DNA of 64,000 bases from Pegea sp. RAD2-039 (Eukaryota; Chordata; Thaliacea; Salpida; Salpidae): NCBI GenBank assembly GCA_034620365.1, contig JAQGEQ010000036.1, positions 62,001 to 126,000 of the forward strand, written 5' to 3'. This document shows, piece after piece, positions 29,940 to 62,485 of the stretch. The notes under the pieces were generated by a model. The model was not told where the DNA came from. It saw only the letters and a program-made list of their open reading frames with translations, and made no database searches. A program made the translations under genes and the position numbers. Within the stretch, counting starts at the first letter, position 1; the number at the start of each line of letters is the position of its first letter.

Positions 29940-30662
29940 ATCTTCCATTCATTTAAATTTAAGTCACAAAAGTTATCTTTTCTATCGCTATAATGTAGCC
30001 ATTTCGAATCCTAGCAGTCAACTTTCCTTAAAATTATTGATGGGAATTTATTTTAAAACCTACAAACATTAGAGAAAAGAGCTAAATGCAAATATCAGAA
30101 GAGAAAAGTTAAAGAAAATATGATTTATGTAGATACCAGTTCTTGAAGTTAGATAAGCTGCAACTTAATTTCGCAGCTAATTCATAAATAACAATTTGCA
30201 GAGCTAAACTGGATTCATTTGGAAGAATATTTTAAAACTATGCTAGGGAATAATCTTTGTATAAATGTGACATTTCATATTTGACTACAAATTTCACTTA
30301 TTAAAAGCAATTTTGTAAATAAAATTTTGCTAAATCTTTTGATGAAACAGTTTGATTTATATGAAGAATTAATTTTATTATATTTGTAATAATAAAACAT
30401 TATAGAATTATTTATTTATGCAGTTCTTAGATTTTACATATAAGATTGGAAAGTTGAAGTAATTTCAGTCTGAATTGTCTAATTGAAAAGTTAGCAGCCA
30501 GTTGAATAACTCCAAATCATTTGAATTTAAGAACAAAAATATATTTAAGAGTTGGTTTCTTTGACGAATAAAACTCGAGTACAAATTGAAATAGTAGATG
30601 TAGAAACAATAATAACTGTAAGAGTATTCCTATATATTATCAACCAATCATATTTTCAAATC

Positions 30663-30770
30663 AGCTGTTCTCTTCAACTAACCAATGATGTCTTAGTTTG
30701 GAAGATTGTTTGAATGGATAGTAGAAACATCACAAGTTTCAGTCATCTCACATAAGACATCTCTGCTGAG
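30663..30770 (-). pseudogene. ACE exon 14 fossil (left arm)
   Basis: The reverse complement matches ACE exon 14 from the [12 protein letters not shown] segment to the WLVEEN segment. The middle is altered and there are in-frame stops. It is the mirror partner of 43865-43975. Confidence 0.8.
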
Positions 30771-31036
30771 TTGATGATTGTTGACAAACAATCTTTTAAT
30801 AAATGATTAACTCCCAATGAAATAAAAGTTAAAAAAGTTTGGAAATACAAATGCTGATATTAATAAACCAGTTAGTTTAGTTTGTAATAAACAAAATTAA
30901 CTTTCAGTGTATTTAAAAAAAAATTTAATGTTTGAAACCTCATTTGAGTTATATCAAAAGTGAATTGAATGAAAAAGGCTTTTACAAAATGTTTTTAAAT
31001 TTGATGATATGTTTTGATAGAAAATCCAACAATTAC

Positions 31037-31208
31037 CTAACAGGTGAGTGGAAAGTGATCCATTTAATTTGACTCTATCTCCAATAATCTGATGAAGATT
31101 GTATCAGATGTAGGCATGAATTTGAAGTTACAAATACTACATTCAAACTTCAAGTCACATTTCTTCAGCTATATTATTTATATCATACCAAAATCTTTAA
31201 TCTTCTTC
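31037..31208 (-). pseudogene. ACE exon 6 fossil (left arm)
   Basis: Reverse complement of a diverged ACE exon 6, including the end of the exon and its GTAATTGTTGG-type donor (compare 13450-13475). Coding sense is lost. Mirror partner of 43428-43605. Confidence 0.7.
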
Positions 31209-33052
31209 AAGATTAGTTCACCATGAGCAAATATCAATAATGAGTTTAGAGATGTTTTCCAAAAGCCACACAACTTGACCTTGCATATTTATAGATCTGC
31301 CATCAGTTAAGTTCTCAAGGGCCTTGGAAATTGTTGCCTTTATTAATAGTCTTATGAAGAAATCAATGCAATAAGTTTACTTTATCTTATAAACTGTAAT
31401 GAATAATAAATAAAGAATTATTGTGAAAATATACAATTTCAATCAAGTAACTATCTTCAAGCTTGTTCTATTAAATATTTAATTATTTTAAAATATTGAG
31501 TTTCTAGATTACACTAATAAAGATAAAAATTGTTTAGCCAAAATTGAAAAAAAAGATTTAACAATCATTTTATTTCTAAACTCTGGACAAAGTCACCTAG
31601 ATATCCAAGTAGATACACATTGAATTGAGTAGAGGTAAGGGTAAGTTGACAAACTTTTTGAGTATTGTAATAAATGATAAATTGTATAAAATGCTAAATA
31701 ACTATTTGTTAATGAAATTGGATTTAAAGACCTAATAAACTAACTAATTTCATTTATATAAAAAAATGTTTCTTTTATTTTTCTCATTTTTAAAAAAAGA
31801 ATAACTTACTTAAATAACTGATTATTTATATAAGTTTTAAATAAAAGACAAAATATCTTTCCTTGTCTATGACTAAAGTTTTTAAAAGTTAGGCAAGCTC
31901 ATACATAGGACATAGATACATTCATAATGAAAGATATTGTCATAATGGATAATTTACCATCTACTGGTTAGATTTATATGTAAACAATTATAATAAAAAC
32001 ATCAATAGATAAGTAATAAATATAAAAGCAAAAAACTTTAAACTTTTGAATAAAATTCTAACTAAAAATTAAATAAATTACATTATTTTTTATAAACTAT
32101 ATAAAACAATAACAATAAATTCATAAGCATCACAATATTAGGCCACTTTTATATCTTTATTCTATTAAAATCATATAACTGGAAAACTTTATTAACTAGT
32201 TGAAGAATAAATATCAAAATTATCTTTTTAAACAATATTTCAATTTTCAATAATAAAAATATTAGAGGTTGCTGATAATTAATGATTTTTTTAGTTTATT
32301 TCTTATAATTCCAGAAAAGTAAACATTAGGATAAATATATTATATACATAATATTCTGTTAACAGAATTAAATGGCCAAACATAATAGCTTAAATCTATG
32401 AGTTGTAATTAGAAAGACTTGTATTTTTTAGCTAAAACAATTTCTTTTTTTAAATATAAACAAAATTTTAATTAAATGTATAACAAATTTAACCAACAAC
32501 ATTTTGTATAACACAATAAGACAGATGAAAATAATAACACTGAAATTAAGTAAACAAATAAAAAGTACAATTTATATCAAGCTACAATATATATTAAATG
32601 ACCAAATTAACCACTAATATAAACCATTCTAAACATGTGCTAAAGGCTTTAACAACTTCACATCAAAATGTCAACAAACCACTTGGTATCAAGTAAGGCC
32701 GATTTTGGTCAATTACATAAAAGAATGAAATTAAAATAGTTAAAATGTTTAAACATTTATTATTAGAATAATATGAAGGACTCAATCTTTAAATAGTCAC
32801 TTAATAATTCTGAGAAACTTTTAATATCGTTTTTACAGAGTAAATAAGCTTTAATATGCAAGAGCATAGTAAATAAGCTTTACTAATAATGATGTTGATG
32901 AGGAAGAAGAGACAACGTCAGTGGGAAAAGTGTAGCAAAAATCATAGAAGAATATTATTGCATATAATGTTGGAACTCTTTCTCTAACTAACTACTACTT
33001 TAAACAATCTCTATTATACAGGTTTGTTAACTAGATTTTGAAAACATTGCAG

Positions 33053-33185
33053 GATCTTCATCACAAGATTATGAAGCAGAAGAAGAGATCAACTTCCAAG
33101 ACTCCTCAGCATCTAATTGCCAACTTATCTGCAAATGTATCAAATCAAATAAAATTTGATGAAAGGTTGCTCCTGAAACTTACAA
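33053..33185 (+). pseudogene. Candidate captured exon, coiled-coil type, B1
   Basis: A 133-base segment with a good acceptor before it (TTGCAG) and a GTAAGC donor after it, open in one frame (DLHHKIMKQKKRSTSKTPQH and onward). The same 133-base length is kept in the copies at 49859-49991 and 58138-58270. In this copy the preceding partner exon is absent because block A is missing here, so it cannot be expressed as in the other copies. No family recognised. Confidence 0.4.
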
Positions 33186-33321
33186 GTAAGCTTTTCAAAC
33201 TGAATATTGAATCTAATTTAAATTTGTAATTGGTCCACCTGTGTGTAGTAAGTTTGATAAGTATAATGTACAGATAATAATAGACAAGAAAAATCCACAA
33301 CATCCGGGTAGAAGGGTTTTG

Positions 33322-33558
33322 CTAGCCGCCAGGGGGTTCATGTTCCGCTGCATACCTAGTTGGTGAAGAGAGTAAAATTCCTGCTACATATGCAACAACT
33401 GGATCTTCATGAATTCTTCCCTGGATTTGTGATCTAAATAGGACAGTCCAGTCTTGTCGAATTGACACTGGAAAGACATATTTACCAATAATAAACCTAA
33501 TCTTGTTTGGTGAAGAGACAGGAGCTAGTGGTGGTTTCCGTCTGTAGATGGGATGTAT
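33322..33558 (-). other. Unassigned open frame, B1 copy
   Basis: An open frame of 78 codons plus stop on the minus strand, without its own ATG at the usual place (a stop precedes it). Its residues match the frames in copies 2 and 3: IHPIYRRKP, LAPVSSPNKIRF, GKYVFPVSIRQ, DPVVAYVAG, SSPTRYAAEHEPPGG. Function unknown. Preserved frame in three diverged copies suggests real coding origin, perhaps the last exon of a transposon or captured gene. Confidence 0.35.
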
Positions 33559-33710
33559 TCATGCCACTGAACAGTCATCACCTGCCTTAAGCTTGACAGT
33601 CCTGAGCCAAGGGTTTAAAATCATCACTCAAATCACACCCCGCATGGCGCTTTTTGGTAAAGCAGGCCCCTATTATTATTATTAAGAAAAGATTAAACTG
33701 TTAGTATAAT

Positions 33711-33782
33711 GGCGAGATGAACTAGCGGTTAAATCTATTGACTACTGATCATGCAAGCGTGGCTTCGAACCATCTCTTGTCG
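33711..33782 (+). repeat. tRNA-like segment (SINE-type head), B1
   Basis: A 72-base piece folds like a worn tRNA. GGCGAGA at the 5' end pairs with TCTTGTC at the 3' end over seven positions with two G-U pairs; a TGG/CCA T-stem encloses a CTTCGAA loop; a TGA/TCA stem encloses the loop CTACTGA with T33 in place; the D-loop has AGCGGTTA. The D-stem pairs poorly, so a working tRNA is unlikely. It lies just after a TTA microsatellite. Best read as a tRNA-derived SINE head copied along with block B. Confidence 0.5.
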
Positions 33783-35274
33783 TCGAGAAAGTATGGCACC
33801 TAGTGCTATTTAGCGCCACCTATCGGACTAAGCAGAAAATATTTTGTTAATTTGTTCTGTACTTTTCTGCCTACTTTATATCGGGGACAGGAACCTCGCT
33901 CATGTTGACTCTTTCAGTGTCTGAGCTGAAAATAAACTAAGTTGTCCCCTGACCACTTACAGGGGATTGTTTAATGAAGATGTTTTATTGTAAGTTTCCG
34001 ACCTTTCTGTGTCACAGTTAGACCAGTACCACACCTGCCGTCCTGGTCCCTACGGTAGATGAGAAATGAACAACTGAAGATCAAAAGTAAATCCGAACAC
34101 AAAATCATTCTATCTTGGGTCACAACACGGTGGTCGCAACCATTTCCCACAAGCTTAGGAAACTTGGGTCTGAGGTGAGCAGGAAACGTGGTTTTCCATC
34201 AAGTGAAAGATTCGTGAATCTGGATGTTGTTGATTAGGAAAAGGAAGATAAGATAGTAACGAAAACTAACCCGACAATAGTAGCAGTAAGCAGAGACTTA
34301 GTACTAGCAGAATCCGACAAAGTACAAACGTCTAACATCCTGAAGTGGCTGTTTGGGAAAAGAAACGATCTGGAGAGTTTGAAATGAGAACGTTTGCTCT
34401 TTTTATCGACTTCTAAGGTACCTGGACACCAAGAAGTTGGTAATCTTTGACAAAGATGGACATGACAGCTGAATTTCTAAGATAACTTAAGTTATAAAAC
34501 CGCTAAACTGGAATTGAATTCACAGATGTGTCTGTATATGTTCGGATGTCTAAACGAAGAAGACTTTTGACGATCCCTGAAGTCAATCCGCTGTGTCTTA
34601 ATTTTCTGAAAAGATCGAGAAGGAAAGAGAAGACTTCTTGTTGATTCAACTACTTGTTATTGTCCTTTTCTTGAGGTAGTAGGAAAAAGAAAACAAGAAG
34701 ATCAACATCTTGAGACACGCAGGGACTCCACAAACGAAAAGAGTGACTTTAGGTTAGCGACAAAACTCCCTACTCTGATTAGGATCCTTTTTCTGGATAT
34801 TAAGAGACTTCTGGCTGCTATAATTTAGATAACTGACCAATTAATCAGCAGATTTATTTTAGTTCTGGATTTACACTTCAAAAACACTAGTGTCATATTT
34901 TAAAGAGTAATTCTTGATTTGATTTTCAAAGTAACTACATCACAAACTAAATTAATTTTTATAATTTAACTTAAAGAGATTAAAAATGATCAATAAAAAA
35001 AGATTGATTTATATTGTCATAATTTGATTTAAAAATATTTATATCCAGTTTACTTCCTACAATTTTTATTTATATCTTTTTTCAAGTTAAGAAAACTTTG
35101 ATGTTAAATTCACTTCTGAAAAAACTCAGTTAAAAATTTGAAAATTAATTTTAGTTGAAATTCATTCTGTTTCTTGTAAATAAAACTAACTGATCTACTC
35201 ATATCACAATTTGAATCACCAATATTGTCTTTTTAAAGTTTATATTGGACTTGATTGGCTAGAAGATTCTCTTC

Positions 35275-35416
35275 CTAGAAACCAGTAAACTTCAAGGACA
35301 CATCTTCTGTAAGATGTCTGGAAGTTGTGATGTTGAGATTATCAAACAATATTTCAAACTGTTTCATGATTGGTTAGTTGATGAAAACCACTGATTAAGA
35401 AATAATGAGTTGGTAA
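35275..35416 (+). pseudogene. ACE exon 14 fossil, B1
   Basis: Matches ACE exon 14 from the region of KDILCEMTG to the terminal GW and stop: here CKMSGSCDVEIIKQYFKLFH, then DWLVDENH followed by a stop. The 3' flank continues to resemble the ACE 3' flank. No neighbouring catalytic exons are present, so it cannot give a peptidase. Confidence 0.85.
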
Positions 35417-37539
35417 TATGTTGGGATGTTTCCAGTGTTATTATTGGTTCTTATTTTCAATTTATGTATATACTCATGCAACAAACTCTAAAATAAATCT
35501 TTTTAATATCAAACTCAACTAATATGAAGTGATTCAACTAAATACTGGAAATTCATTTGTCAATTTCTTCAACTTTGCAATTTTATCGATAAAATTCAGC
35601 AAATCTAACCTTTCAGCAAATTTTAAATTGTATATCTTAGAATTATAACTAGAGCCATTTTTTATTTAAATCAAAGTATTTTCATAAATTGGCAAAGATT
35701 GTTTATAAAATATTTATAATCAAAAAGTTTCCAATTAAAGTTGATTATTGAGATGTCATATTCATGTAGAAAGTATTTCAAAGTTTAATTTCTAACTACA
35801 ATCCTAAAATAATTCATTTTAATTATCTAAATTGTAAAAGTTAAATTAGCAGTTTAAATATAGCTGAGAACATTTGGATTCTAAATATAAGAGATAGTTT
35901 CTATTCACAAAATATTTTCTCTGATGTTTACAATCTGAAGTTTTGATTTCGTCTCTTTGATAGTAAATCAGTTTTAATGAATAATTTTGTGAAAAAGTCC
36001 TCACTGGTTTGAAGACTCCTTAAATTGTATGATAACTAATTAACTTTTTTAAGCATAAGTGAACAGTTTCTTCAACTACTTTGTTGAAGTAGATCTTAAA
36101 AGATTGATGAGAAATATAACTGAATAAGATCTTTTATAAAAATGTTGAATTGAAGTTGTAGTAAAGTTCTAAACGGTTAGATAACTCATTTTGCTGCTAA
36201 GTTTGTTTTAACAATCAACAATTCTATTAAGTGATCTCATCTTGGATTAATTAGAAAACTTCAAATATTTTTAGGAGATATCTTTAGGAAAATTAACTCT
36301 GCCTTCGGCTGTACAATTTCTAACAACTTTGATTATTATGCGCAAGATAAATAGAATAATAAATTAATCTTTGACTGGTGTCATCGAAGAGTTTTTATTG
36401 ACTAATGTCATTAATCTAACTAGTTATTGACTGATTCTTTATTCTGTTTTGAATTAAATCAACTTTGCTACATTCCAACATTATACAGTTTTGGGTCACA
36501 TTTCATTAAAAAGTAAAAATTAGATCAGTTTTTGCAAACAAGATTTATTTATTTGAATGACATTTAAACCTTATGATTAAAGTTGATATGTTGTGCTACC
36601 TTATATATTTTCCTATTGCTGTTAGGAGCAACCCAAGCAGATCGCCCTGAATGGCGCTCTCTACTCCGCAGATAAATCAAGAATAGAGAGGAAATTTAGC
36701 TTTAAACAATAATTTGATCAATCAACTAACTTTTGACTAATTCTTTTGGTTTGTTTGATCAAACAAAATTGATATGGTGATGCTTAGAGATTTTGAAATT
36801 TATAATCGAAACATATTCAGGTTTGATGCTCTGATGTTTTGCAATCGTCAAATAATATTTTGATAACATTTTATCAATCAAAATATAGTATCTTCATTTA
36901 GTAAATTCTTGTAGTTAATCAGAAGTTTCAGTTTTAGTGGTTAGTAGTTATCATTATTGAGATATCTTTAATTTAGGTTTAATTGCAGTGTTTCGGTTTA
37001 TAGTAATTGCTTTTATTGATTTACAATTTTATAAAAAAATGTAAAATTTAGCTACAAAACTTTTCATCGTCATTAGCATGCCAATAGGGCCACAAAAAAC
37101 TGGTCTTCAACCACAGGAGCTGATTTAAAATCAAATAGAGACTAACGATTCTATTAAGCCTTTCAAACATCAATTAAGCTTAAATATATATTTGTATTAG
37201 GAAGTAATTATTGGGCTTACGAGTCTTCCACTTATGTTAGTATATCACGATGATTAAGATTTAATTGTATTTAAAATTAACATTGAAATAGAATCAACAC
37301 AATTTGAAGTCATTAGAAAGTACTACTTCCTAATAAATATTGTAGTTTTCTCAATTTTGTTAAATAGCAGCTTCTGGGAAAATAATAAATGATTTAAATG
37401 AATAATAAGGCTTTACAAAATATCTAGAGACCTCATCAGATTAAATCTGAGTTGCTGTCATCAAGGTTCAAACTAATTTTAAGATATTTTGAGACTAGTT
37501 AAAATACGGAATAAAATTGTTCTGCTGTTTTATAGTTTA

Positions 37540-40500
37540 TTTATAACTATAAATGCAACGGAAGGTTCCTATAGAGAGCATCTCCCGCTAACACTCGTTC
37601 TCACAAATAACATCTATTAAGTTAGAACTATAGAAAGTAAAAGATGTAACACATGGCATTTCAGTAATCCTCAAAGCATATATCTGTGAACTTATATAGA
37701 GTTATAGTAATATAAAAAAAGAAAGAACAATTCACAGTTTAAAAATGGCAATATTGTAACAGTTCAACTTCTGCTTGAACATTGCGAGTCATTTTGGCAT
37801 GACAGTGTCTGATGGCAGCTGGTACCAAGTAGTAATTGTGCAGTATGAGAAGAAATTCAATCTGACTATTATTACCAGGTGATATGAGCTTATTAAGTGT
37901 GTCGTCTGAGTTAATATAGCCTGAGGTAAGAACTAATGGAAAAGCAATCATCAAACTAAAGGTCAATTAAACTGTGGATAATTTTAAAAATAATAATTAA
38001 GTCGTATTTAGTTGGTCGAATTTCCAAAGTATCTAGAGTGAAGAAGCTGAGATGATGTTTATAACGATCGCATTTCATATTAAGTTTTCTGCATACCAAT
38101 CTTGTAAATGTTGCCTGAACAGATTCGACTTTTTTAATGTGAACAACTTAATATGGCATCCATGTACTAACAATGTATTTAAAAATCGAACGTAGGTACA
38201 ATTTGAAAAGATTGATTAAAAAGTATGGATCCGCTGAATTAAACGTAATTAGAGAAAGGTGGACAAGGTTGATTGATTTTTCAAAAATTTTGGAAACATA
38301 ATTGCGACATTTAAAGTCAGATGATGGAGTAACACCAAGGCTTAGGACCGAAGATATTCGTTTAATAATAAATCCATTAATGGAGTAATGGTTCAAGAAA
38401 TTTGCAACTGGTTTACGAGAAAAAGTTATAAGTTCAGACTTTATGGGCTGGATTCTAAGCTGCCAGTTCATAGACCAGTTTTCTACAGCATGTAAAGCAA
38501 TTTGAACTTGTGAATGATAACAAGATATTAGTTTGCTGCCATCTGCATACACAAACACACCGACATCATCTACTGCTACCAATCTTCTGATGATGTCTTT
38601 AATGAAAATTTAAAACAGATGGGGATCCAGAACGGAGCCCTGAGGACAAAAACACCACTGGTGACTTGACTAGGAGTAGATAAAGATCTTTCACCACAAG
38701 TTTGTTGGATTCTATCTGATAAGTAATCTTCAATCCACTTTGAGATAAAGCTGCTGCTTTTAAAAGTTTGTTATACAGTAATGAGGTTGTTGTGTCGGAC
38801 AGAGTCAAACGCTTTAGCGAAATCGAGATACATGATGTCACAAGGAGTATTACTTTCATAATGGGCTGTAAGCTCATTATTAAAAGTGAGATATTGAGTC
38901 AGGGAAGATCTCCGTTTCACAAAACGATGATTGACATCAGATATAAAATGACTGGCTATATGGCTGTGAATGATTTGTTCTTGAGTTCTGCAGATAACTG
39001 TAGTCAGTGAAACTGGTCGGTAGTTTATTGCAATGTTTCTGGGACTTGTTTTATGAATAGGAAAAATGATAGCTTTCTTCCAAATTTGTGGAAGTCTTCC
39101 TTGCTTCAGAGTGATGTTAAAGAGTAACAATGAAGGTAGTGATAACAAGGAAGTAATTTTTCTAAAAAGAAACCAATAGAGTTCATTAGGGATGTTGGAA
39201 ACTGATGATTTTAAAGATGAAATAGTCCTAGATACTATATCGACCGTTATGTCAAGATTTATCATCTTGTAGATAGACATTTGTAGGAATGTTGGAGTAC
39301 GAAACATATGGAGTATCGTAATTATCGGTTATAAAAACTTTATTAAATTGATTGTTTAGCAATTTAGCTTTATTCTCTGGTTCCATCACAAGCTGGTTGC
39401 TGTTATCAACTAATAGAGCAAATGTAGTTTTATGTTGAATCTATAAGAAAGTATAAGTTTCTCAATTGATTCTTTAACGATGTTAGTAAACCTTGAGAAA
39501 ATAGTATTGATGTCTTTGGAAGAGATGAAAACAGAAATCCAGTCAACACCTGATAGAAACTTGTCTATATAATTATAATTTCCACAATACAAGTTCCCTT
39601 TGCTTGAAGTTTTAACGTTCTTGGAAAAAGTTAGATGAAACTTGAATTCAATCATGTTGTGATTGCATATCGGAGCAAAGGGTTGTCTTTGATCAACGTA
39701 GATAATGTTCTAAGGTGTTGATGTAATAAGAAGCTCAAAAATATTACCACTAACTTGGGTAGGAAAAGTGACCACCTGAGATAGATTATTGCCATCGATA
39801 AAGCCTACAAAGGCATAAGTTAGATTGGCTAAATTAATATTATCGTTTTCCAAGTTAAACGATTTTCCCATAAATGCTAGATTCGGGTTATTCCGATCAA
39901 TTTTACTATAATCAAAACCCCCAATAATTATGTAACTCAGGACACACAACACTCTTCATAACCTTCAATAAGGCCTTAACAGTAGATTATCTCATCAGTA
40001 GATTTAGATGGTGGTGGGTAGGTACAAATAAAAGAAGAAAATTTGATCGTTGAGTAATGAAAATCGAAAGCGATAATCTCAATCCTGCACAATGGCATCG
40101 ATCTGAATTCTGAAGGTCTTGGGTGCAAGCGATTATTTGTAAATTACTCAAACACTGTCCCTTTATCATACATTCTGTTACAACGTAAAGCACAAAAAAC
40201 TTTATCGTAAACCAGAAAAGAATCAGGATGCAACGGTTTTAACCAAGTTTCTGTAAAAAAAAAACCACATGTAAAATCTTGGGAATGCAAAAGAGCTTTT
40301 AATTGGAAAATTGCGTTAATAATCGACCGCACGTTGAAGAACATACCTAATGTAATAGAAAGATTGTCTTTTTGACGCTGTTGAGATTTGATGATAGGCC
40401 TCTGTAGATTGATATATTTCGCTGAAAGGATGGTATTCATAATTGTGTGCAAAGAGAGCTTGATAAAAGAAGATGTGGGTCCAGTGGTTATTTGACACTT

Positions 40501-40550
40501 CGGTTTTTTGAAAGTTAGTTGATTTGTTTTGTAAACATAACCGATCAGAA
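37540..40550 (-). mobile_element. CR1/Jockey-type LINE, nearly complete ORF2
   Basis: Minus-strand copy with the 3' tail at 37540 and the end of ORF1 near 40550. Order along the element: endonuclease start with TETWLKP (~40230), the DYSKIDRNNP block (~39895), linker (39410-39655), RT with INYRPVSL (~39030), MYLDFAKAFDSVRHN (~38800), a diverged GVxQGS block (~38630), the catalytic box written YADG rather than YADD (38534-38550), then the C-terminal region to ~37740 and the 3' UTR. Several stops and frameshifts break ORF2, so it is not active. The same YADG is present in the copy at 62486-64000. Confidence 0.9.
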
Positions 40551-40926
40551 TTAATAAGCTGTAAGAATCTTAACTATAATACATAGCAAGTGACAAATAA
40601 CGAACAGATTTCGATTTTATCTCAGCTGCACATTTATTAGTAGAAAATAAAACAGCATATGATATTTACCACCAAAATATTCTTATCCTAACAAAAAAAT
40701 TATACTAGTCCAAGAAAACTTATGAGGTCACAAATACAAATTAAGAACTCAATTAAATCATTAGATGGAAAAATAATTATAAGATAAACTATTCTTCTAT
40801 AACAAAGAATACAAAACACAAACAATTTCAGAGTTCTATATCCAGCGTGGACTTGTTTAACAGCACAATAAAATCATTGTTTTAAACCACTTTTGTTACT
40901 AGCAAAATACGTAAAAATAAAATCAC
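40551..40926. other. Short spacer, no feature seen
   Basis: AT-rich sequence between the LINE 5' end and the right inverted arm. Nothing recognised. Confidence 0.4.
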
Positions 40927-42927
40927 TTTTGCAGCTTAAAGTTTATTACTCGGTAAAAAGAATATTAAAAGTTTCTCATAGTTAAAAAGGGCTAATTTAA
41001 GATTGAGTCCATCAAATTATTCTAATAATAAATGTTTCAACATTTTAAATAATTTAATTTCATTCTTTTATGTGATTGACCAAATTCGGCCTTACTTGAT
41101 ACCAAGTGGTTTGTTGACATTTTGATGTGAAGTTGTTAAAGCCTTTAGCACATGTTTAGAATGGTTTATATTATTGAATGATTTGGTTATTTAATATATA
41201 TTGTAACTTGATTTAAATTGTATTTTTTATTTGTTTACTTAATTTCAATGTTATTATTGTCATTTGTCTTATTGTGTTAAAGAAAATATTGTTGATTAAG
41301 TTTTTTTATATAATTAAGAAAAATTGTTTTTATATTTAAAAAAGGAAATTATTTTAGCTAAAAAATGCAAGTTTTACTAATTACAAATCATAGATTTAAG
41401 CTATTCAACTCCTTAGCCATTAAATTCTGTTTAAGTATTATTATGTATATAATATATTTATCCTAATGTTTACTTTTCTGGAATTATAAGAAATAAAGTA
41501 TAAAAAAATCATTAATTATCAAAAACCTCTAATATTTATTATTGAATATTGAATTGAAATATGTTTAAAAAGATAATTTTTATATTTATTCTTCAACTAG
41601 TTAATAAAGTTTTCTAGTTATATGATTTTAATATAATAAATATAAAAAAGTAGTATAATATTGTGATGACTATAATTTTATTGTTATTGTTTTATATAGT
41701 TTTTAAAAAATAATGTAATTTAGTTTTGTTTTTGTCTAGAAGTTTAATTATAAGTTAAAAGTTCTTTAATTTTATATTTATTACTTATCTATTGATATTT
41801 TTATTACAATTGTTTACATATAAATCTAACCAGTAGATGGTAAATTATCCATTATGACAATATCTTTCATTATGAATGTATCTATGTCCTATGTATGAGC
41901 TTGCCTAACTTTTAAAAACTTTAGTCATAGACAAGGAAAGATATTTTGTATTTTATTTAAACCTTATATAAATAATCAGTTATTTAAGTAAGTTATTCTT
42001 GTTATAAAAAAGAAATAAATAAAAGAAATACTTTCATATATAAATGAAAGTGGTCAGTTTATTAGGTCTTTAAAACCAATTTCATTAACAAATAGTTATT
42101 TAGCATTTTGTACAATTTATCATTTATTACAATACTCAAAAAGTTTGTCAACTTACCCTTACCTCTACTCAATTCAATGTGTATCTACTTGGATATCTAG
42201 GTGACTTTGTCTGAGTTAAGAATCAAAATGATGGTTGTGTCTTCTTTCTAAGAATATATATAAAATTATCTTTGTTTATTTTCTAGCTAAGGATATCTTA
42301 TCTTTATTAGTGTAATCTAGAAACTCAATGTTTTAAAATAATTAAATTTTTAATACAACAAGCTTGAAGATAGTTACTTGATTGAAATTATATATTTTCT
42401 CAATAATTCTCTAATTATTTGTCATTACAGTTTATAAGATAAAGTAAACTTATTCCATTGATTTCTTTACAAGACTATTAATAAAAACAACAGTTTCAAG
42501 GCAGTTAAGAACTTACCTGGTAGTAGATCTATAAATATACAAAGAAGGATGCCACGTCAAAAAAATGCTGATGAAAAGTTGTAGCTTAAGTTAGATTTCA
42601 AATAGTTATCAGTTTTATATAATTGCTTTCAATCTCTTTGACAATGTATGTCAGAAAACTTTGTATAAATGATAGACAACTCAATATCAAATAAGAATTT
42701 AATTGACAGATTTATTTTAGTCCTTGATTTACAGTTATGAAACATTGGTCTTATATTCTAAACTTTCATTTGATCTGTACAATTAATTAATATAATAGTT
42801 AGTTTGTTTTCTATGTACAAGGATTTTAATCAATTAAACAAGATTTTTGGATTTGATTTTGGAAATAATTTCATAACTTCTTAGATTGATAACATTACAA
42901 ATTAACTGAATACTTGAATTTAAGCAG

Positions 42928-46815: not shown

Positions 46816-46829
46816 AATTTCACTTACGA

Positions 46830-49991: not shown

Positions 49992-50128
49992 GTAAGCTTT
50001 TCAAACTGAATATTGAATCTAATTGAATTTTGTAATTGGTCCACTTGTGTGTAGTAAGTTTGATAAAAATAATCTAAAGATAATAATAGACAAAGGAAAG
50101 TCCACAACATTCGGGTAGAAGGGTTTTG

Positions 50129-50830: not shown

Positions 50831-50902
50831 GGCGAGATGAACTAGCGGTTAAATCTATTGACTACTGATCATGCAACCGTAACTTCGAACCATCTCTTGT
50901 CG
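50831..50902 (+). repeat. tRNA-like segment (SINE-type head), B2
   Basis: Second copy of the tRNA-like element at 33711, with the acceptor ends and the CTTCGAA loop intact; differences (ACCGTAA for AGCGTGG) lie in the variable and T-stem region and weaken the stem. Confidence 0.5.
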
Positions 50903-52391
50903 TCGAGAAAATATGGCACCTAGTGCTATTTACCGCCACCTATCGGACTAAGTAGAAAATATTTTGTTAATTTGTTCTGTACTTTTCTGCCTGCTTTATA
51001 TCGGGGACAGGAACCTTGCTCATGTTGACTTTTTTAGTGTTTGAGCTGAAAATAAACTAAATTGTCCCCTGACCACTTACAGGTGATTGTTTAATGAAGA
51101 TGTTTTATTGTAAATTTCCGACCTTTCTGTGTCACAGTTAGACCAGTACCACAGCTACCGTCCTGGTCCCTGCGGTAGATGAGAAATGAGCAACTAAAGA
51201 TCAACAGCAAATCCGGACACAAAATCACCGTATCTTGGGTCGCAACACGGTGGTCGCAACCATGTCCCACAAGCTTAGGAACTTGGGTCTGAGGTGAGTA
51301 GGAAACGTGGTTTTCCATCAAGTGAAAGATTCGTGAATCTGGATGTTGTTGATCAGGAAAAGGAAGATAAGATAGTAACGATTACTAACCCGACAATAGT
51401 AGCAGTAAGCAGAGACTTAGTACTAGGAGAATCCGACAAAGTACAAACGTCTAACATCCTGAAGTGGATGTTTGGGAAAAGAAAAGATCTGGACAGTTTG
51501 AAATGAGAACGTTGGGTCTTTTTGTCGACTTCTAAGGTACCTGAACACCAACAAGCTGGTAATCTTTGACAAAGATGAACATGACAGCTGAATTTCTAAG
51601 ATACCTTAAGTTATAAAACTGATAACCTGGAATTGAATTCACAGATGTGTTCGTCGATGTTCGGATGTCTAAACGAAGAAGACTTTCGACAATCCCTGAA
51701 GTCAATCCGCTGTGTCTTAATTTTCTGAAAAGATCGAGAAGGAAAGAGAAGACTTCTTGTTGATTCAACTACTTGTTATTGTCTTTTTCTTGGGGTAGTA
51801 GGAAAAAGAAAACAAGAAGATCAACATCTTGAGACACGCAGGGACTCCACAAACGAAAAGAGTGACTTTAGGTTAGCGACAAAACTCCCTACTCTGATTA
51901 GGATCCTTTTTCTGGATATTAAGAGACTTCTGGCTGCTATAATTTAGATAACTGACCAATTAATCAGCAGATTTATTTTAGTTGTGGATTTACACTTCAA
52001 AAACACTAGTGTCATATTTTAAAGAGTAATTCTTGATTTGATTTTCAAAGTAACTACATCACAAACTAAATTAATTTTTATAATTTAACTTAAAGAGATG
52101 AAAAATGATCAATAAAAAAGATTGATTTATATTGTCATAATTTGATTTAAAATTATTTATATCCAATTTCCTTCCTACAATTTTTATTTATATCTTTTTT
52201 CAAGTTAAGAAAACTTTGATGTTAAATTCACTTCTGAAAAAATTCAGTTAAAAATTTGAAAATTAATTTTAGTTGAAATTCATTCTGTTTCTTGTAAATA
52301 AAACTAACTGATCTACTCATATCACAATTTGAATAACCAAAATTGTCTTTTTAAAGATTATATTGGACTTGATTGGTTAGAAGATGCTGTT

Positions 52392-52534
52392 CAAAGAAAC
52401 CAGTAAACTTCAAGGACACATCTTCTGTAAGATGACTGGAAGTTGTGATGTTGAGATTATCAAGCAATATTTCAAACTGTTTCATGATTGGTTAGTTGAT
52501 GAAAACCACTGATTAAGAAATAATGAGTTGGTAA
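52392..52534 (+). pseudogene. ACE exon 14 fossil, B2
   Basis: Same as the B1 fossil: CKMTGSCDVEIIKQYFKLFH then DWLVDENH and a stop. KMTG here is closer to the intact gene (EMTG) than the B1 copy (KMSG). Confidence 0.85.
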
Positions 52535-54379
52535 TATGTTGGGATGTTTCCAGTGTTATTATTGGTTCTTATTTTCAATTTATGTATATACTCATGCAAC
52601 AAACTCTCAAATAAATCTTTTTAGTATCAAACTCAACTAATATGAAGTGATTCAACTAAATACTGGAAATTCATTTGTCAATTTCTTCAACTTTGCAATT
52701 TTATCGATAAAATTCAGCAAATCTAACCTTTCAGCAAATTTTAAATTGTATATCTTAGAATTATAACTAGAGCCATTTTTTATTTAAATCAAAGTATTTT
52801 CATAAATTGGCAAAGTTTGTTTATATAATATTTATAATCAAAAAGTTTCCGATTAAAGTTGATTATTGAGATGTCATATTCATGTAGAAAGTATTTCAAA
52901 GTTTAATTTCTAACTACAATCCTAAAATAATTCATTTTAATTATCTAAATTGTAAAAGTTAAATTAGCAGTTTAAATATAGCTGAGAACATTTGGATTCT
53001 AAATATAAGAGATAGTTTCTATTCACAAAATATTTTCTCTGATGTTTACAATCTGAAGTTTTGATTTCGTCTCTTTGATAGTAAATCAGTTTTAATGAAT
53101 AATTTTGTGAAAAAGTCCTCACTGGTTTGAAGGCTCCTTAAATTGTATCATAACCAATTAACTTTTTTAAGCATAAGTGAACAGTTTCTTCAATTACTTT
53201 GTTGAAGTAGATCTTAAAAGATTGATGATGAATATAACTGAATAAGATCTTTTATAAAAATGTTGAATTGAAGTTGTAGTAAAGTTTTAAACTGTTAGAT
53301 AACCCATTTTGCTGCTAAGTTTGTATTAACAATCAACAACTCTATTAAGTGATCTCATCTTGGATTAAGTAGAAAACTTCAAATATTTTTGGGAGATATC
53401 TTTATTAAAATTAACTCTGCATTCGGCTGTACAATTTCTAACAACTTTGATTATTATGCGCAAGATAAATAAAAGAATAAATTAATCTTTGACTGGTGTC
53501 ATCGAAGAGTTTTTATTGACTAATGTCATCAATCTAACTAGTTATTGACTGATTCTTAATTCTGTTTCAAATTAAATCAATTTTGCTACATTTCAACATT
53601 AAACAGTTTTGGGTCAAATTTCATTAAAAGGTAAAAATTAAATCAGTTTTTGCAAACAAGATTTATTTATTTAAAAGACAATTAAACCTTATGATTAAAA
53701 TTGGTTTGTTGTGCTACCTTATATATTTCTCTATTGCTGTTGGGAAAATACCGAAGCAGATCGCTCTGAATGGCGATCTCTACTCCGCAGATAAATCAAG
53801 AATAGAGAGGAAATCCAGCTTTAAACACTAATTTAATCAATCAACTAACTTTTGACTAATTGTTTTGGTTTGTTTGATCAAACAAATTTGATATGATGAT
53901 ACTTAGAAATTTTGAAATATATAATCTAAACATATTCAGGTTTGGTGCTCTGATGTTTTGCAATCGTCAAATAATATTTTGATTACATTTTATCAATCAA
54001 AATATAGTATCTTCATTTAGTAAATTCTTGTAGTTAATCAGAAGTTTCAGTTTTAGTGGTTAGTAGTTATCATTATTGAGATATCTTTAATTTAGGTTTA
54101 ATTGCAGTGTTTCGGTTTATAGTAATTGTTTTCATTGATTTACAGTTTTATAAACAAAATGTAAAATTTAGCTACAAAACCTTTCATCGTTATTAGCATG
54201 TCAATAGGGCCACAAAAAACTGGTCTTCAACCACAGGAGCTGATTTAAAATCAAATAGAGACTAACGATTCTATTAAGCCTTTCAAACATCAATTAAGCT
54301 TAAATATATATTTGTATTAGGAAGTAATTATTGGGCTTAAGACTCTTCGACTTATGTTAGTATATCACGATGATTAAGA

Positions 54380-55100
54380 TCCCTATGGTTTTTATCAATC
54401 TTTCCAAATTGTACGTTCGTCCAATTCTTGAATACAATGTTAGTGCATGGATGTCATATCAAGTTAGTGATATCAAAAAAATCCAGTCTGTTCAGGATAC
54501 ATTAACGAAATTAGTAAGTAGTAATTTTAATATTAAATACGATAGTTATAAACATCATCTCAGCTTTTTCAACATAAATACTTTAAAAGTTCCACGAGTT
54601 AAATACGATTTAATTAATATTTTTAAAATTGTGAACAATTTAATTGACTTTCAGTTTGGTGACTTTGTTTCCATTAGTCCTTCACTCAAGTTATACCAAC
54701 TCAGACTACACACATTACATCTTATTAGACCATATCACCGTGTACATTAATCAGATTGAATTTTTTCTCATACCGCACAATGGAAACAGCTGCCATCAGA
54801 TATTTTCATGTCAGAATCACTCGCTATGTTCAAGCAGAAGTTGAACCGTTATAATATTGCCAACATTGCCATTTCTAAAACTTGAATTATCTATTTTTTA
54901 AATAGTACTATAATTCTATGTAAAAGCTCACTGTTATATGCTTTAAGGACTACTGAAATGCCATGTGTAATATCTTTTACTTTCTGTATTTCTAAATTAA
55001 TAGATGTTATTTGTGATAATGTGTGTTAGCGAGAGGGGCTCGCTTCAGGTACCATCTTCTGCATTTATTGTAATAAATAAATAAATCGATAGATAAATAA
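54380..55100 (+). mobile_element. LINE 3' end at the tandem junction
   Basis: Contains only the C-terminal part of ORF2 (SDIKKIQSVQ near 54470, open 54370-54750) and the 3' UTR, with a perfect six-pair hairpin at 55028-55044 and an ATAA-repeat tail. It is the copy of 46093-46815 made by the tandem duplication and not a separate insertion. Confidence 0.9.
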
Positions 55101-57970
55101 AGATTTCACTTACGAATGAGATTCTAAAGTTACATTGTAAACGAAAATATCGACCATTTTTGATTTATTTACTTTTAAAGCTTGCTCTTAACTTAAAGAG
55201 TAAAGTTACTTAAATTTTGTTGAAGTTGATAATCAATGGTATGTTGTCATTTAGAAATTATTTTTGTTAAAACTGTTAACACATGGTTGGTTGGATTTGT
55301 TTTTGTAGTTGATTAAAATATTTTGTGAATTTGTTGTAAAAGAGTTTGCTTTTTTAATTGTGTTTAATATTCTTTTGTTTATAACTTATTTTTGATGAGT
55401 TGTATTATAAAATGAATTACTTAAATATTTATAAATCAGTTTCAAAATGAGGTATTAATTATGATTTTTATGAATACAAAAGTTTGAACTGATTTTGCGT
55501 TTCTAATGAAATTATCCTTACCAATCATCACTGACTAACCTCAATATATATTTCTTATTTTTATCAAGATATTGTTACATTTAAATGGTATATTATATCA
55601 TTATTAAATTATGATAATAAATTATGTTGTTAAAAAAACTTTAATAATCTTTCATAAATATATGTTAATATAGAATAGAGTTTCTTAGAATTAATTAGAA
55701 ATATGATGTGAATAATATATAGTAAAGTTATGATTAAATTTATTTGAAATTGATATAATTTATTTCTGTAGATATTTAATTAAACTTCAATTGAATTGTT
55801 TTTATTGCAAGTGGGAACTTTTACACAAATAATAGTGTAAGTTTGAAAATATTATTTTTGTTTAAAATCTTCTTGTTATGTTTGTAAAAGTGATGTGTAC
55901 TAATAGCTATGTTTATTAATATATATATTATTAGCTCTTTTAGCATTGATATATTAAAGAGTTTTAAAGAATTTTAGATTAACTTTCAAATAATTCAAAA
56001 GCGTTCACATAGTTTAATAAAATCAACTTTGACAAAGATGTTAACTTTTCAGTAAAACAGTTGGAAAATAGTTTTCTTTTTTTAATTTATTACATGATTA
56101 AAAACAAATCTGTTTGATTTTATTAAATGATTTTATTAAGATATGTCTCCAATATTATAACTGTGTTTTAGAGCAAACTACTAGTTATAACAAGTTTTTG
56201 AAATTAACCTCTTAAGATGCTTCTGAAGCTTTATTAATTTTCATTTTTATTTATTGATTTCTAATCAATTTTATATTATAATTTTGTTTTTAGAATTGTT
56301 TTGAAACTTACCACTGAAAATTTGTGTTCAGACAAATCATTTGTTGGTCAATGTTTAAATTGTTCTTTTCCATCTTTCATGACTTCCAAATCATCTGCTT
56401 CATCATTTGTATTAATTTCTAAATTTTATCATCACTATTTAAAAACAGATTTTGAAATCAAATCTTTTGCAGCTTCTTAAAACAGTTTTATTTTTCTTAC
56501 AGACCAACAATCAAACTACAAACTGAAAAACAAATGTTTATCTAGTTGTTGATAAAGTATCTTCAAATAAGATCTTCATCTTCACTTAGGAATGGAACTA
56601 GAATAATCAACAAATCTTCATCTTCCTATTAAACAAGAATTTTGTAATTTTAACAGAAGATAGAAGTAAGTAGAAATCAATTTCTTTCTCTTCTAAAAGT
56701 AGAATGGGAACTGAGGTCTCAAAACTTCCCAAAATATCGCCATGGTCTTCACCATCTTTCTTCAGATAGACTCCTATCTCTATGCTTCTAACAACTTTGT
56801 AATGGTAGCCAGGTCAACTCTGTCGTTGATGACGTCATTGTGACTAGATGACTTCATCTGTTAAGTTGACTTTATCCAAGTTTCCCTGGTAGGTTGACAA
56901 GTGACCCATAAATCTTACATCTTGCTTCCAGTAGACACATTTGTTGTCTTTTTTAGTTAGAAGTATGATAATTGTAATCAACGTTCTCCCAGGTTCAAAC
57001 CTGAAAGCTTTGACATAAAGTTCTACTCCATAGATGCTTCACGCTTGCTAGATTTACCTTTCTGGGACAAGTTGAGACCCATTTAGTGAGTATCTTTAGT
57101 ATATCACTCATCACTCTGTAAGATGCGTTTGTCAGAACCCACTCTGTTTGCATTCAATCCACTAAAGAGTCAGTCTCGTTTCAACATCATCACTCAGCTA
57201 GTGTTGCTTGTTATTTGGTTGTAGTGACAACATCGCGTTTCACTTAGTGGTGGCTTCTCTGCGTTTCGACTTCATTATTACTTCACAATTATCAAACTCA
57301 CTTTTAATTTAATTCTTTTCAGCTCCTTTGAGGCAAACAAGTGAAGTTGTGTAAAGACTGCTTTCATGATGGAAACTGAAGTCAATCCATTGAGGTAGAG
57401 GACAAAACTTGATTTGTTTTCAACTATTTTATGGATCAATTATATCAGAAGTTGTCGTTCCTGTTACACCTACAAGACAGGTAACCACCTCGCTGGCGAT
57501 TCCATTTTTATGACAGCTTTGTTTGTTTAGCTTTGTTGTTATGGAGCCGACAAAGCTGCTACCTCCATCAAGTGGTCATCTACTTCAGAGCTGGATGAAA
57601 ATGAAGAAGATCTGCTTCCAACTTATCAAGTAGTGATCTCTGATAACCTCTTTCAATCTTCTCCACTTTCTACTTGCAGAAATCTGATCAAGTTGTCTCA
57701 ATTCTATCTTCTACAAGCTGTTGCTCCTGCTCTGATCTCTAAACCCGCTCCTACAGATCTTCTTCTTTCTAAGATCAAGAGATCATAAAGAGCTTGCAAA
57801 GTAAGTGGATGATGATTGGTTGTGATTGCTTTATTTGAATATTTTGTAGAAAAAATGAAGAAAAGAATGGAGAAGATACAAACAGAAAATGAAAGTTCGA
57901 AGCCAGTTGTTGAAGTAGACAAACAGAATGATGAAGAGAAGTGGATTGTGTTGAAGAAGGTCGTGAGTAT
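55100..57970 (+). repeat. Block A, copy 2
   Basis: Near-identical to 46830-49684 with a few small indels. The minus-strand frame of copy 1 is broken here. It ends with the first candidate coiled-coil exon. Confidence 0.88.
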
Positions 57971-58270
57971 CTAATGATGTTGATGAGGAAGAAGAGACAA
58001 CGTCAGTGGGGAAAGTGGAGCAAAAATCATAAAAGAATATTATTGGGTATAATGTTGGAACTCTTTCTCTAACTAACTACATCTTTAAACAATCTCTATT
58101 TTACAAGTTTGTTAACAAGATTTTGAAAAAGTTGCAGGATCTTCATCATAAGATCATGAAGCAGAAGAAGAGATCAACTTCCAAGACTCCTCAGCATCTA
58201 ACTGGCAACTTATCTGCAAATACATCAAATCAAATAAAAGTTGATGAAAGGTTGCTGCTGAAACTTACAA
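57850..58270 (+). pseudogene. Two candidate exons of an unknown coiled-coil protein, copy in unit 2
   Basis: Segments 57850-57962 (113 bases) and 58138-58270 (133 bases) have the same lengths and splice borders as in unit 1 and here both are open, joining to give EEKWIVLKKV then DLHHKIMKQKKRSTSKTPQH and onward to LLLKLT. An earlier 27-base mini-exon just before a GTAAGTGG donor would fit in phase. Further exons were not located, so this may be a gene fragment or a gene whose ends lie elsewhere. Confidence 0.42.
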
Positions 58271-58406
58271 GTAAGCTTTTCAAACTGAATATTGAATCTA
58301 ATTGAATTTTGTAATTGGTCCACTTGTGTGTAGTAAGTTTGATAAAAATAATCTAAAGATAATGATAGACAAGAAAAGTCCACAACATCCGGGTGGGAGG
58401 GTTTTG

Positions 58407-58652
58407 TTAGTCGCCAGGAGGTTCATGTTCTGCTGCATACCTAGTTGGTGAAAAGAGTAAGGGTCCTGCTACATATGCAGCAACTGGATCTTCTTGAATT
58501 CTTTCCTGGATTTGTGATCTAAAGAGGACACACCAGCCTTGTCGAATTGACACTGGAAAGACATATTTACCGGTTATAAACCTAATCTTGTTTGGTGAAG
58601 AGACAGGAGCTAGTGATGGTTTCCGTCTGTAGATGGGATGTATTGATTCCAC
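58407..58652 (-). CDS. Unassigned conserved open frame, B3 copy
   Basis: An 81-codon frame starting MESIHPIYRRKP and ending RYAAEHEPPGD. Compared with the B1 and B2 copies, the frame is kept and length is the same as in B1. No family assigned. With three copies it is a fair candidate for the last exon of a gene or of a mobile element's protein. Confidence 0.3.
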   Translation of the reverse strand: MESIHPIYRRKPSLAPVSSPNKIRFITGKYVFPVSIRQGWCVLFRSQIQERIQEDPVAAYVAGPLLFSPTRYAAEHEPPGD

Positions 58653-59065
58653 TGAATAGTCATCACTTGCCTTAATCCTGGGCCAATAAGGTTCTGTTCC
58701 ACCACAGCCGTCCTCATTGGGTGCTTGGGGGTTAGCAGTAGTCTACTGCGACAAGTTAATTGTAGATATTTGCTTCTAGCAATCAAATACTAGTAATTGG
58801 GAGGATATTCCAGCAGATCGCTCCGAGTGGCTCTCTCTACTCTGCAAAAAATGAAGGATAGAGAAGAAAAATATTTACAAAGAAAAGAACGAAACCCTAA
58901 AAACTTTTCTTTTCTATTTCACTGTGCCTTGCTCCATCAGACTTTTGCATCTCTCTGTATCATGCTTTCATTTTAATATTATCATTCAAATCACACCCCG
59001 CATGGCGCTTCTCGGTGAAGCAGGCCCCTATTATTATTATTATTAAGAAAATATTAAACTGTTAT

Positions 59066-59137
59066 GGCGAGATGAACTAGCGGTTAAGTCTATTGACTAC
59101 TGATCATGCAAGCGTAACTTCGAACCATCTCTTGTCG
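59066..59137 (+). repeat. tRNA-like segment (SINE-type head), B3
   Basis: Third copy of the tRNA-like element; the acceptor ends, D-loop and CTTCGAA loop are kept. It follows a longer TTA microsatellite. Confidence 0.5.
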
Positions 59138-60626
59138 TCGAGAAAATATGGCACCTAGTGCTATTTAGCGCCACCTATCGGACTAAGTAGAAAGTATTTT
59201 GTTAATTTGTTCTGTACTTTTCTGCCTACTTTATATAGGGGACAGGAACCTCGCTCATGTTGACTCTTTCAGTGTCTGAGCTGAAAATAAACTAAATTGT
59301 CCCCTGACCACTTACAGGGGATTGTTTAATGAAGATGTTTTAATGTAAGTTTCCGACCTTTCTGTGTCACAGTTAGACCAGTACCACACCTGCTGTCCTG
59401 GTCCTTGCGGTAGATGAGAAATGAGCAACTAAAGATCAACAGCAAATCCGAACACAAAATCATCCTCTTTTGGGTCACAACACGGTGGTGGCAACCATTT
59501 CCCACAAGCTTAGGAAACTTGGGTCTGAGGTGAGTAGGAAACGTGGTTTTCCATCAAGTGAAAGATTCGTGAATCTGGATGTTGTTGATTAGGAAAAGGA
59601 AGATAAGATAGTAACGATTACTCACCCGACAATAGTAGCAGTAAGCAGAGACTTAGTACTAGCAGAATCCGACAAAGTACAAACGTCTAACATCCTGAAG
59701 TGGATGTTTGGGAAAAGAAAAGATCTGGACAGTTTGAAATGAGAACGTTGGGTCTTTTTGTCGACTTCTAAGGTACCTGAACACCAACAAGCTGGTAATC
59801 TTTGACAAAGATGGACATGACAGCTGAATTTCTAAGATACCTTAAGTTATAAAACTGCTAACCTGGAATTGAATTCACAGATTTGTTCGTCGATGTTCGG
59901 ATGTCTAAACGAAGAAGACTTTTGACAATCCCTGAAGTCAATCCGCTGTGTCTTAATTTTCTGAAAAGATCGAGAAGGAAAGAGAAGACTTCTTGTTGAT
60001 TCAACTACTTTAATTGTCCTTTTCTTGGGGTAGTAGGAAAAAGAAAACAAGAAGATCAACATCTTGAGACACGCGAGGACTCCACAAACGAAAAGAGTGA
60101 CTTTAGGTTAGCGACAAAACTCCCTACTCTGATTAGGATCCTTTTTCTGGATATTAAGAGACTTCTGGCTGCTATAATTTAAATAACTGACCAATTAATC
60201 AGCAGATTTATTTTAGTTGTGGATTTACACTTCAAAAACACTAGTGTCATATTTTAAAGAGTAATTCTTGATTTGATTTTCAAAGTAACTACATTACAAA
60301 CTAATTTAATTTTTATAATTTAACTTAAAGAGATTAAAAATGATCAATAAAAAAGATTGATTTATATTGTCATAATTTGATTTAAAATTATTTATATCCA
60401 ATTTCCTTCCTACGATTTTTATTTATATATTTTTTCAAGTTAAGAAAACTTTGATGTTAAATTCACTTCTGAAAAAACTCAGTTAAAAATTTGAAAATTA
60501 ATTTTAGTTGAAATTCATTCTGTTTCTTGTAAATAAAACTAACTGATCTACTCATATCACAATTTGAATCACCAAAATTTTCTTTTTGAAGTTTATATTG
60601 GACTTGATTGTTTAGAAGATTCTCTT

Positions 60627-60769
60627 CCTAGAAACCAGTAAACTTCAAGGGCACATCTTCTGTAATACGACTGGAAGTTGTGATGTTGAGATTATCAAAC
60701 AATATTTCAAACGGTTTCATGATTGGTTAGTTGATTAAAACCACTGATTAAGAAATAATGAGTTGGTAA
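60627..60769 (+). pseudogene. ACE exon 14 fossil, B3
   Basis: Third B-block copy of ACE exon 14. It has the same terminal stop as the others plus a further one (DWLVD followed by a stop). Confidence 0.83.
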
Positions 60770-62485
60770 TATGTTGGGATGTTTCCAGTGTTATTATTGG
60801 TTCTTATTTTCAATTTATGTATATACTCATGCAACAAACTCTCAAATAAATCTTTTTAATATCAAACTCAACTAATATGAAGTGATTCAACTAAATACTG
60901 GAAATTCATTTGTCAATTTCTTCAACTTTTTAATCTTATAAATAGAATTCAGCAAAACTAACCTTTCAGCAAATTTTGAATTGTATATCTTAGAATTATA
61001 ACAAAAGCTATTTTTTTATTTAATTCAAAGTATTTTAATTATCTAAATTGTAAAAGTTAAATTAGCAGTTTAAATATAGCTGAGAACATTTGGATTCTAA
61101 ATTTAAGAGATAGTTTCTATTCACAAAATATTTTCTCTGATATTTATAATCTGAAGTTTTGATTTCGTCTCTTTGATAGTAAATCAGTTTTAATGTATAA
61201 TTTTGTGAAAAAGTCCTGCAATTACTTTGTTGAAGTAAATCTTAAAAGATTGATGATGAATATAACTGAATAAAATCTTTTATAAAAATGTTGAATTGAA
61301 GTTGTAGTAAAGTTTTAAACTGTTAGATAACCCATTTTGCTGCTAAGTTTGTATTAACAATCAACAACTCTATTAAGTGATCTCATCTTGGATTAAGTAG
61401 AAAACTTCAAATGTTTTTAGGAGATATCTTTAGGAAAATTAACTCTGCCTTCGGCTGTACAATTTCTAACAACTTTGATTATTATGCGCAAGATAAATAA
61501 AAAAATAAATTAATCTTTGACTGGTGTCATCAAAGAGTTTTTATTGACTAATGTCATTAATCTAACTAGTTATTGACTGATTCTTTATTCTGTTTTGAAT
61601 TAAATCAACTTTGCTACATTTCAACATTATACACTTTTGGGTCACAATTCATTAAAAGGTAAAAATTAGATCAGTTTTTGCAAACAAGATTTATTTATTT
61701 GAATGACATTTAAACCTTATGATTAAAGTTGATATGTTGTGCTACCTTATATATTTTCCTATTGCTGTTAGGAGCAACCCAAGCATATCGCCCTGAATGG
61801 CGCTCTCTACTCCGCAGATAAATCAAGAATAGAGAGGAAATTTAGCTTTAAACACCAATTTAATCAATCAACTAACTTTTGACTAATTCTTTTGGTTTGT
61901 TTGATCAAACAAATTTGATATGATGATACTTAGAAATTTTGAAATATATAATCGAAACATATTCAGGTTTGATGCTCTGATGTTTTGCAATCGTCAAATA
62001 ATATTTTGATTACATTTTATCAATCAAAATATAGTATCTTCATTTAGTAAATTCTTGTAGTTAATCAGAAGTTTCACTTTTAGTGGTTAGTAGTTATCAT
62101 TATTGAGATATCTTTAATTTAGGTTTAATTGCAGTGTTTCGGTTTATAGTAATTGTTTTTATTGATTTACAGTTTTATAAAAAAAATGTAAAATTCAGCT
62201 ACAAAACTTTTCATCGTTATTAGCATGCCAATAGGGCCACAAAAAACTGGTCTTCAACCACAGAAGCTGATTTTAAATCATATAGAGACTAACGATTCTA
62301 TTTAGCCTTTTCAACATCAATTAAGCTTAAATATATATTTGTATTAGGAAGTGATTATTGGGCTTACGACTCTTCAACTTATGTTCGTATATTAAAATAA
62401 TCAAGATTTAATTGTATTTAAAATTAACATTGAAATAGAACCAACACAATTTGAAGTCATTAGAAAGTACTACTTCCTAATATAA

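Follow-up and report, generated by a model that had tools for sequence, protein, structure and literature searches.

The window analysed here is a 64,000-nucleotide stretch of the Pegea sp. RAD2-039 genome, bases 62001-126000 of contig C145 (134,674 bases). An intact ACE gene of peptidase family M2 spans 10407..16523 on the forward strand, as judged from its splice sites, open frame and Pfam match. Its 14 exons lie at 10407-10719, 11831-11961, 12280-12425, 12712-12849 and 13014-13120 (exons 1-5), at 13272-13460, 14222-14374, 14744-14858, 15047-15158 and 15313-15436 (exons 6-10), and at 15642-15786, 15844-15942, 16098-16220 and 16361-16523 (exons 11-14). All 13 introns are bounded by GT-AG, and the 685-aa open frame covers positions 8-581 of the 581 in Peptidase_M2 (PF01401, 1.7e-199), which bears out the original prediction of an intact 14-exon gene at 10.4-16.5 kb. 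The motif HEMGH and a second motif of 12 residues are both found in the protein, and HEMGH, the HExxH zinc site, aligns with that of the ACE chain 9clx_A. With a full domain and this zinc site, the gene is a member of family M2.

Upstream of ACE are genes for an L7Ae-family protein (1252-1665), a proteasome subunit (from 2516) and a galactosyltransferase (8957-9565). A second M2 (ACE-like) gene, more compact and with its own HEMGH, is located on another contig (C264:191635-194451). No tRNA was found and no Rfam family matched at gathering; Tandem Repeats Finder returned seven short arrays with periods of 4-19.

Fossil exons and the repeated unit

Comparison of the window with itself by blastn (E<=1e-5, rows of at least 60 bases) recovered 11 rows in which ACE or its flank pairs with sequence past 29.9 kb (30.6-62.5 kb), including a piece that holds exons 4 and 5 with their intron. 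In this piece, ACE 12702-13159 corresponds to 42918-43374 at 89.1% identity. Exon 6 recurs at 43458-43629 (+) and 31185-31013 (-) (74-76%), exon 14 at 35277, 43873, 52393 and 60653 (+) and at 30757 (-) (76-79%), and the ACE 3' flank (17137-17392) at 37138-37402, 54258-54337 and 62285-62488 (74-76%). The same nine fossil exon pieces had been counted originally (exons 4 and 5 once each, exon 6 twice, exon 14 five times). Intron 4, the start of intron 5 and the 3' flank were copied along, as expected from the proposed duplication at the DNA level, and the fossils are non-processed pseudogenes that carry introns and flank with them. A processed (retro)pseudogene is ruled out, with intron 4 present at 93-94%.

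The fossils are arranged in blocks. The first of these, A0 (29925..32864, inverted), contains exon 6 (31185-31013) and exon 14 (30757-30594) without exons 4-5, and is 87-88% identical to 44529-43372 and 42542-40926. It is followed by a partial B block on the forward strand (32886..37402; exon 14 fossil 35277-35440, 3' flank 37138-37402) and by LINE remains on the reverse strand (37536..40513) that include a reverse transcriptase piece (38774-39328). Block A1 (40926..44653, +) holds exon 4 (42928-43064), exon 5 (43229-43335), exon 6 (about 43420-43606) and exon 14 (about 43834-43994). Further along the forward strand come a LINE 3' part (45585..46800), a segment designated X (46800..49730) and another B block (49684..54380; exon 14 fossil 52393-52558, 3' flank 54258-54337). 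The LINE, X and B sequence of 46102-54380 is repeated as a tandem copy at 54389..62491 (+; exon 14 60653-60793, 3' flank 62285-62488), which is 94-95% identical in two long aligned pieces. A LINE copy on the reverse strand (62485..64000, 91-93% to 37689-39299) opens the next unit.

The repeated unit consists of A (exon 6, with or without exons 4-5, and exon 14), B (exon 14, with the 3' flank further down), and LINE and X sequence between them. Parts of X are related to C21:541548-543083, at 67-68% for 47902-48352 and at 84% over 476 aligned bases for 49269-49729; this C21 locus sits near a cyclophilin-type gene. The unit is much more than ACE pieces: the original prediction missed that it is chimeric with LINE and C21-related DNA, and that the array lies on two contigs. 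The unit measures 16.7 kb on contig C28, which has two A blocks (969746 and 986413). On C145 the A1 blocks are found at 40.9 and 65.6 kb, a wider spacing that arises because LINE-X-B is doubled between them.

The LINE family is found genome-wide (best 40 of 4,727 first-look candidates scored); one copy lies 3' of ACE (18100-20760), and pieces occur at several block borders of the array. A short dispersed repeat within B (about 50544-50804), perhaps SINE-like, is 72-86% identical to many genome sites (best 40 of 304 first-look candidates scored, array copies included). LINE pieces adjoin the B-block ends, which would make LINE-to-LINE exchange a plausible cause of the amplification.

Extent and orientation of the array

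DNA searches covered 105.7 Mb of genome in 387 contigs, with the best candidates scored and very common words skipped. The array runs past the window to the last base of C145 and recurs in the terminal 40 kb of C28 (967.6-1007.8 kb of 1,007,819). Originally it was placed at 29940..62485; the end at 62485 does not stand, since the array continues to the contig end. The genome search that had been proposed for further ACE-derived blocks did yield more, in the rest of C145 and at the end of C28. Among the best candidates scored, A-block DNA occurs on C145 and C28 only, save one 60-bp match on C1; the other matches to block pieces are the X-related C21 locus, the dispersed short repeat, and stretches of 60 bp on C1 and 93 bp on C21. 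A whole-gene search (best candidates) gave at least 12 exon 14, at least six exon 6 and at least four exon 4-5 rows outside ACE, or at least 11, five and three, respectively, with the contig overlap counted once. An extra exon-4 remnant is present in the outermost fossil (C28:967581-968588).

The overlap joins C145:126269-134674 (8,406 bases) to the reverse complement of C28:999398-1007819 (8,422 bases) at 99.25% identity, with 47 substitutions, and the match reaches exactly both contig ends. This is probably a dovetail overlap of one locus at which the contigs can be joined; it could instead represent two very similar units. The joined map is likely to contain a single array, about 75 kb long, that includes a near-palindrome of 13.3 kb; coordinates above 64000 are window coordinates extended along this map. 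The palindrome arms, 13.3 kb long and 97.9% alike on the joined map, flank a 4.7-kb B copy. The window part of one arm is at 61205..64000 (+), with C28:979554-992849 as its 97.9% counterpart. Since C28 alone carries blocks in both orientations, the inversion is independent of the contig join. Self-blastn and block comparison on C145 and C28 show that amplification was both tandem and inverted, as predicted.

We also considered C28 and C145 as two alleles and rejected this reading. Their flanks (C145 from 52001, C28 from 940001) share only the LINE in rows of at least 150 bases, and there is no M2 match on C28.

Truncation and decay of the fossils

Read in the ACE frame, fossil exons 4 (two copies), 6 (two) and 14 (three) contain 2-7 stops each. 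Their indels are not multiples of three and their differences are spread across codon positions; coding is disabled in exons 4, 6 and 14 of the tested copies, as in a pseudogene. Open reading frames of at least 60 aa in the X-B stretch 46900-52800 (18 in all, outside the A blocks, the LINE pieces and the final 1.6 kb of B) were compared with three other copies. A stop or frameshift interrupts 17 of the 18 in at least one of the three, and the remaining one (49491-49715, minus strand) is open in all three with no third-position bias. Pfam returned nothing above cut-off for four X-B ORFs (50132-50500, 51279-51503, 49420-49752 and 48562-48867), and below-cut-off matches for the last two were taken as chance. 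That the array amplifies a useful gene is unsupported, with none of the 18 X-B ORFs looking conserved, and the ORFs tested gave no evidence of an array product.

The original prediction held that exons 7-13 are missing from all copies. We aligned each of these exons to a single stretch of either type, 42500-44700 for A and 50000-52400 for B, with 100 shuffles. For these two stretches their absence is upheld: 13 of the 14 alignments fall within the 100 shuffles, and exon 12 against the A stretch is marginal (z 2.8, 2/100 shuffles). A tblastn search of the ACE protein against the joined map gave five exon-6 fossil matches at 33-42% identity, all of which cross the exon 6/7 border (residue 341) and end at residue 359 (four matches) or 382 (one). 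We read this overrun as alignment run-on because the exon 7 DNA test is not significant, being reached by 17/100 shuffles for A and 74/100 for B.

A- and B-type fossils are alike on both sides of exon 14 (65-67%) and have much in common between exons 6 and 14 (z 6.3, 0/300 shuffles), a likeness that favours one truncated ancestor. In A1, the sequence that separates exon 6 from exon 14 resembles ACE intron 6 weakly (z 2.7, 7/300 shuffles); its match to intron 13 plus the first part of exon 14 is better (z 3.5, 0/300). The sequence upstream of exon 14 in B has no significant match to ACE intron 6 (128/300 shuffles) or intron 13 (42/300), so a deletion shared by A and B rests on the similarity between them. 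The outermost fossil on C28 is truncated differently, with exon 4 followed by the 3' half of exon 14 and flank; its identity to ACE is 68-71%, with 66 more bases at 79%. There was therefore either more than one truncation or further decay. The proposal of one truncated paralogue, amplified by inversion and tandem duplication, is mostly right. Both modes of duplication and the sequence shared by A and B speak for it; it did not include the second truncation type on C28 or a probable conversion step.

Probable gene conversion and alternative explanations

Within the A1 fossil, a tract at 43060..43374 (+) is about 94% identical to ACE 12845..13160 (+), a stretch that begins at the end of exon 4 and reaches the start of intron 5; exon 5 of the tract is open. 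In this copy (42.9-43.6 kb), exon 4 is 79% identical to ACE, whereas intron 4, exon 5 and the opening 40 bases of intron 5 are each at 94%; identity falls to 63% over the remainder of intron 5 and to 71% in exon 6. For the other two A1 copies the values are 79-81% (exon 4), 93% (intron 4), 92-94% (exon 5), 97% (opening 40 bases of intron 5), 64% (its remainder) and 70% (exon 6). These are three of four A1 rows, the fourth falling in the contig overlap. In each of the three copies, the low-difference segment that scores best is ACE 12845-13215, with 18/322, 21/322 and 19/322 differences inside and 111/392, 114/399 and 112/399 outside. It was reached by 0/10,000 shuffles for each copy, under shuffles that carry no model of varying ACE constraint. 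The 3' flank, as a neutral yardstick, stands at 79% (two copies aligned).

The intron is better preserved than the adjacent exons, which argues for gene conversion with the working ACE gene; neutral sequence that is closer than the flanking coding sequence is the reverse of selection on protein. The tract has the form of a conversion event, with similarity raised inside an older alignment and neutral sequence included. Fossil exon 5 is free of stops and indels relative to the ACE frame in all three copies, and such an open exon in a dead fossil favours ACE as the donor. We infer, from these alignments, that about 300 bp of the fossil were overwritten by ACE through interlocus gene conversion, probably in this direction, so that one fossil would combine sequence of two ages. 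Fifteen differences from ACE are common to the three A1 copies (8 variable sites of 312 in the tract), so the presumed conversion predates A1 duplication. At 43873-43910, the A1 exon 14 fossil has a stretch of 38-39 bases identical to ACE, against 62/199 differing overall (0/10,000 shuffles, with varying ACE constraint outside the model). This may be a second, tiny conversion tract; we do not rely on it, since within the stretch the A0 exon 14 at 30757 is one base different and constraint is unmodelled.

The high identity might instead stem from a piece of ACE with exons 4-5 that entered an A0-type block later, as an insertion of its own. Exons 4-5 are missing from both A0 blocks, whose breakpoint coincides with the tract's right edge, and the aligned A blocks (two A0, four A1 rows) begin their shared sequence exactly at this right junction. 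Against this, the exon 4-5 piece is collinear with exon 6, and exon 4 is frameshifted and at 79-81% next to an intron 4 at 93-94%, where a single late insertion predicts even divergence. We regard a later insertion as unlikely.

Inverted copies are a recognised assembly artefact, and C145 and C28 both end inside the array. Copies made from chimeric or mis-joined reads are nonetheless highly improbable here, as the block copies are 2-13% different, with substitutions and indels of their own that are unexpected for miscopies of one locus. The two A0 (outermost A) blocks are 87.4% alike over 1.4 kb, A0 and A1 blocks are 87-93% alike, and A1 blocks 93-98%. Identity among the B blocks is about 95%, without a gradient from outer to inner copies, and it is among the A blocks only that the outermost are the most diverged.

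Selection on the stretch in both gene and fossil, as an intronic regulatory element or RNA, would account for the conservation of intron 4 and exon 5 together, but is extremely improbable. It needs a 300-bp block with sharp edges inside an otherwise decaying fossil, most differences in exon 5 are at first and second codon positions (3+2 of 6, 5+3 of 9 and 4+2 of 7), and none of the tested X-B ORFs looks conserved. Capture and spread of ACE pieces by a transposable element, which the LINE pieces at several block borders and the dispersed short repeat within B might suggest, is hardly credible: the LINE and the short repeat are on many contigs, whereas A-block DNA (best candidates) is on C145 and C28 only, bar the 60-bp C1 match, and does not form dispersed pieces with common ends.

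We thus prefer to read the locus, with a probability of about 0.8, as a dead, non-processed ACE pseudogene array in which an ACE-converted fossil was amplified within a chimeric unit. An ACE copy would have lost exons 7-13, which are absent, through a deletion from intron 6 to intron 13, and the truncated fossil would have split into A and B lineages. The A lineage would then have been converted by working ACE across the end of exon 4, intron 4, exon 5 and the start of intron 5, and the converted fossil embedded with LINE pieces and C21-related X DNA in a unit of about 16.7 kb. Tandem and inverted duplication multiplied this unit, possibly driven by LINE-to-LINE exchange.

Comparison with known systems

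The array is a compact natural record of a gene fragment that decayed, was probably overwritten by its parent and was then amplified, and the order of these steps can be read. ACE copy counts or exon-5 reads in the Pegea sp. RAD2-039 genome can be misled by the fossils, and two contigs break inside the array.

Drosophila hairpin-RNA (hpRNA) loci originate from copies of their targets. On C28 alone, the exon 4-5 piece is present in both orientations, at 985960-986415 (+) and 1004471-1004016 (-). Stretches identical to ACE occur twice in sense (77 bp at 43279-43355 and 53 bp at extended 67987-68039) and once in antisense (53 bp at extended 85676-85728), with sense and antisense of the C28 copies resting on the join. 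Exact 53-bp matches to ACE 13088-13140, of which 33 bp are in exon 5, occur in both orientations on the joined map. Inverted copies nearly identical to a candidate target mRNA are a feature that the array has in common with hairpin-RNA loci. It is very doubtful that the inverted array is a small-RNA source that regulates ACE, with conversion from ACE refreshing the target match. If the inverted copies are transcribed, the birth of a self-targeting small-RNA locus becomes testable. Drosophila hpRNA loci (PMC10317233, PMC10292708) consist of inverted copies, parts of which are almost identical to a gene. The ACE array resembles them in both features, but its inverted copies are kilobases long and far apart.

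Human GBA1 and its pseudogene undergo gene conversion. A working gene with a nearby dead copy is common to both systems, the GBA1 pseudogene being described as 16 kb away (PMC9768924). Unlike that pair, the ACE fossil is truncated, lies in a chimeric unit and is amplified in both orientations, and its conversion seems to have run from gene to fossil. The array also shares large inverted repeats with arms that stay alike with the palindromes of mammalian sex chromosomes, for which arm identity over 99% is reported (PMC8981503); the arms of the ACE array are at 97.9%, and its tested part has no conserved gene. No published ACE fossil array is apparent from literature titles, which cannot prove its absence from print. 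The array is a new, well-resolved example of known processes, namely non-processed pseudogene formation, interlocus conversion and segmental amplification, rather than a new system.
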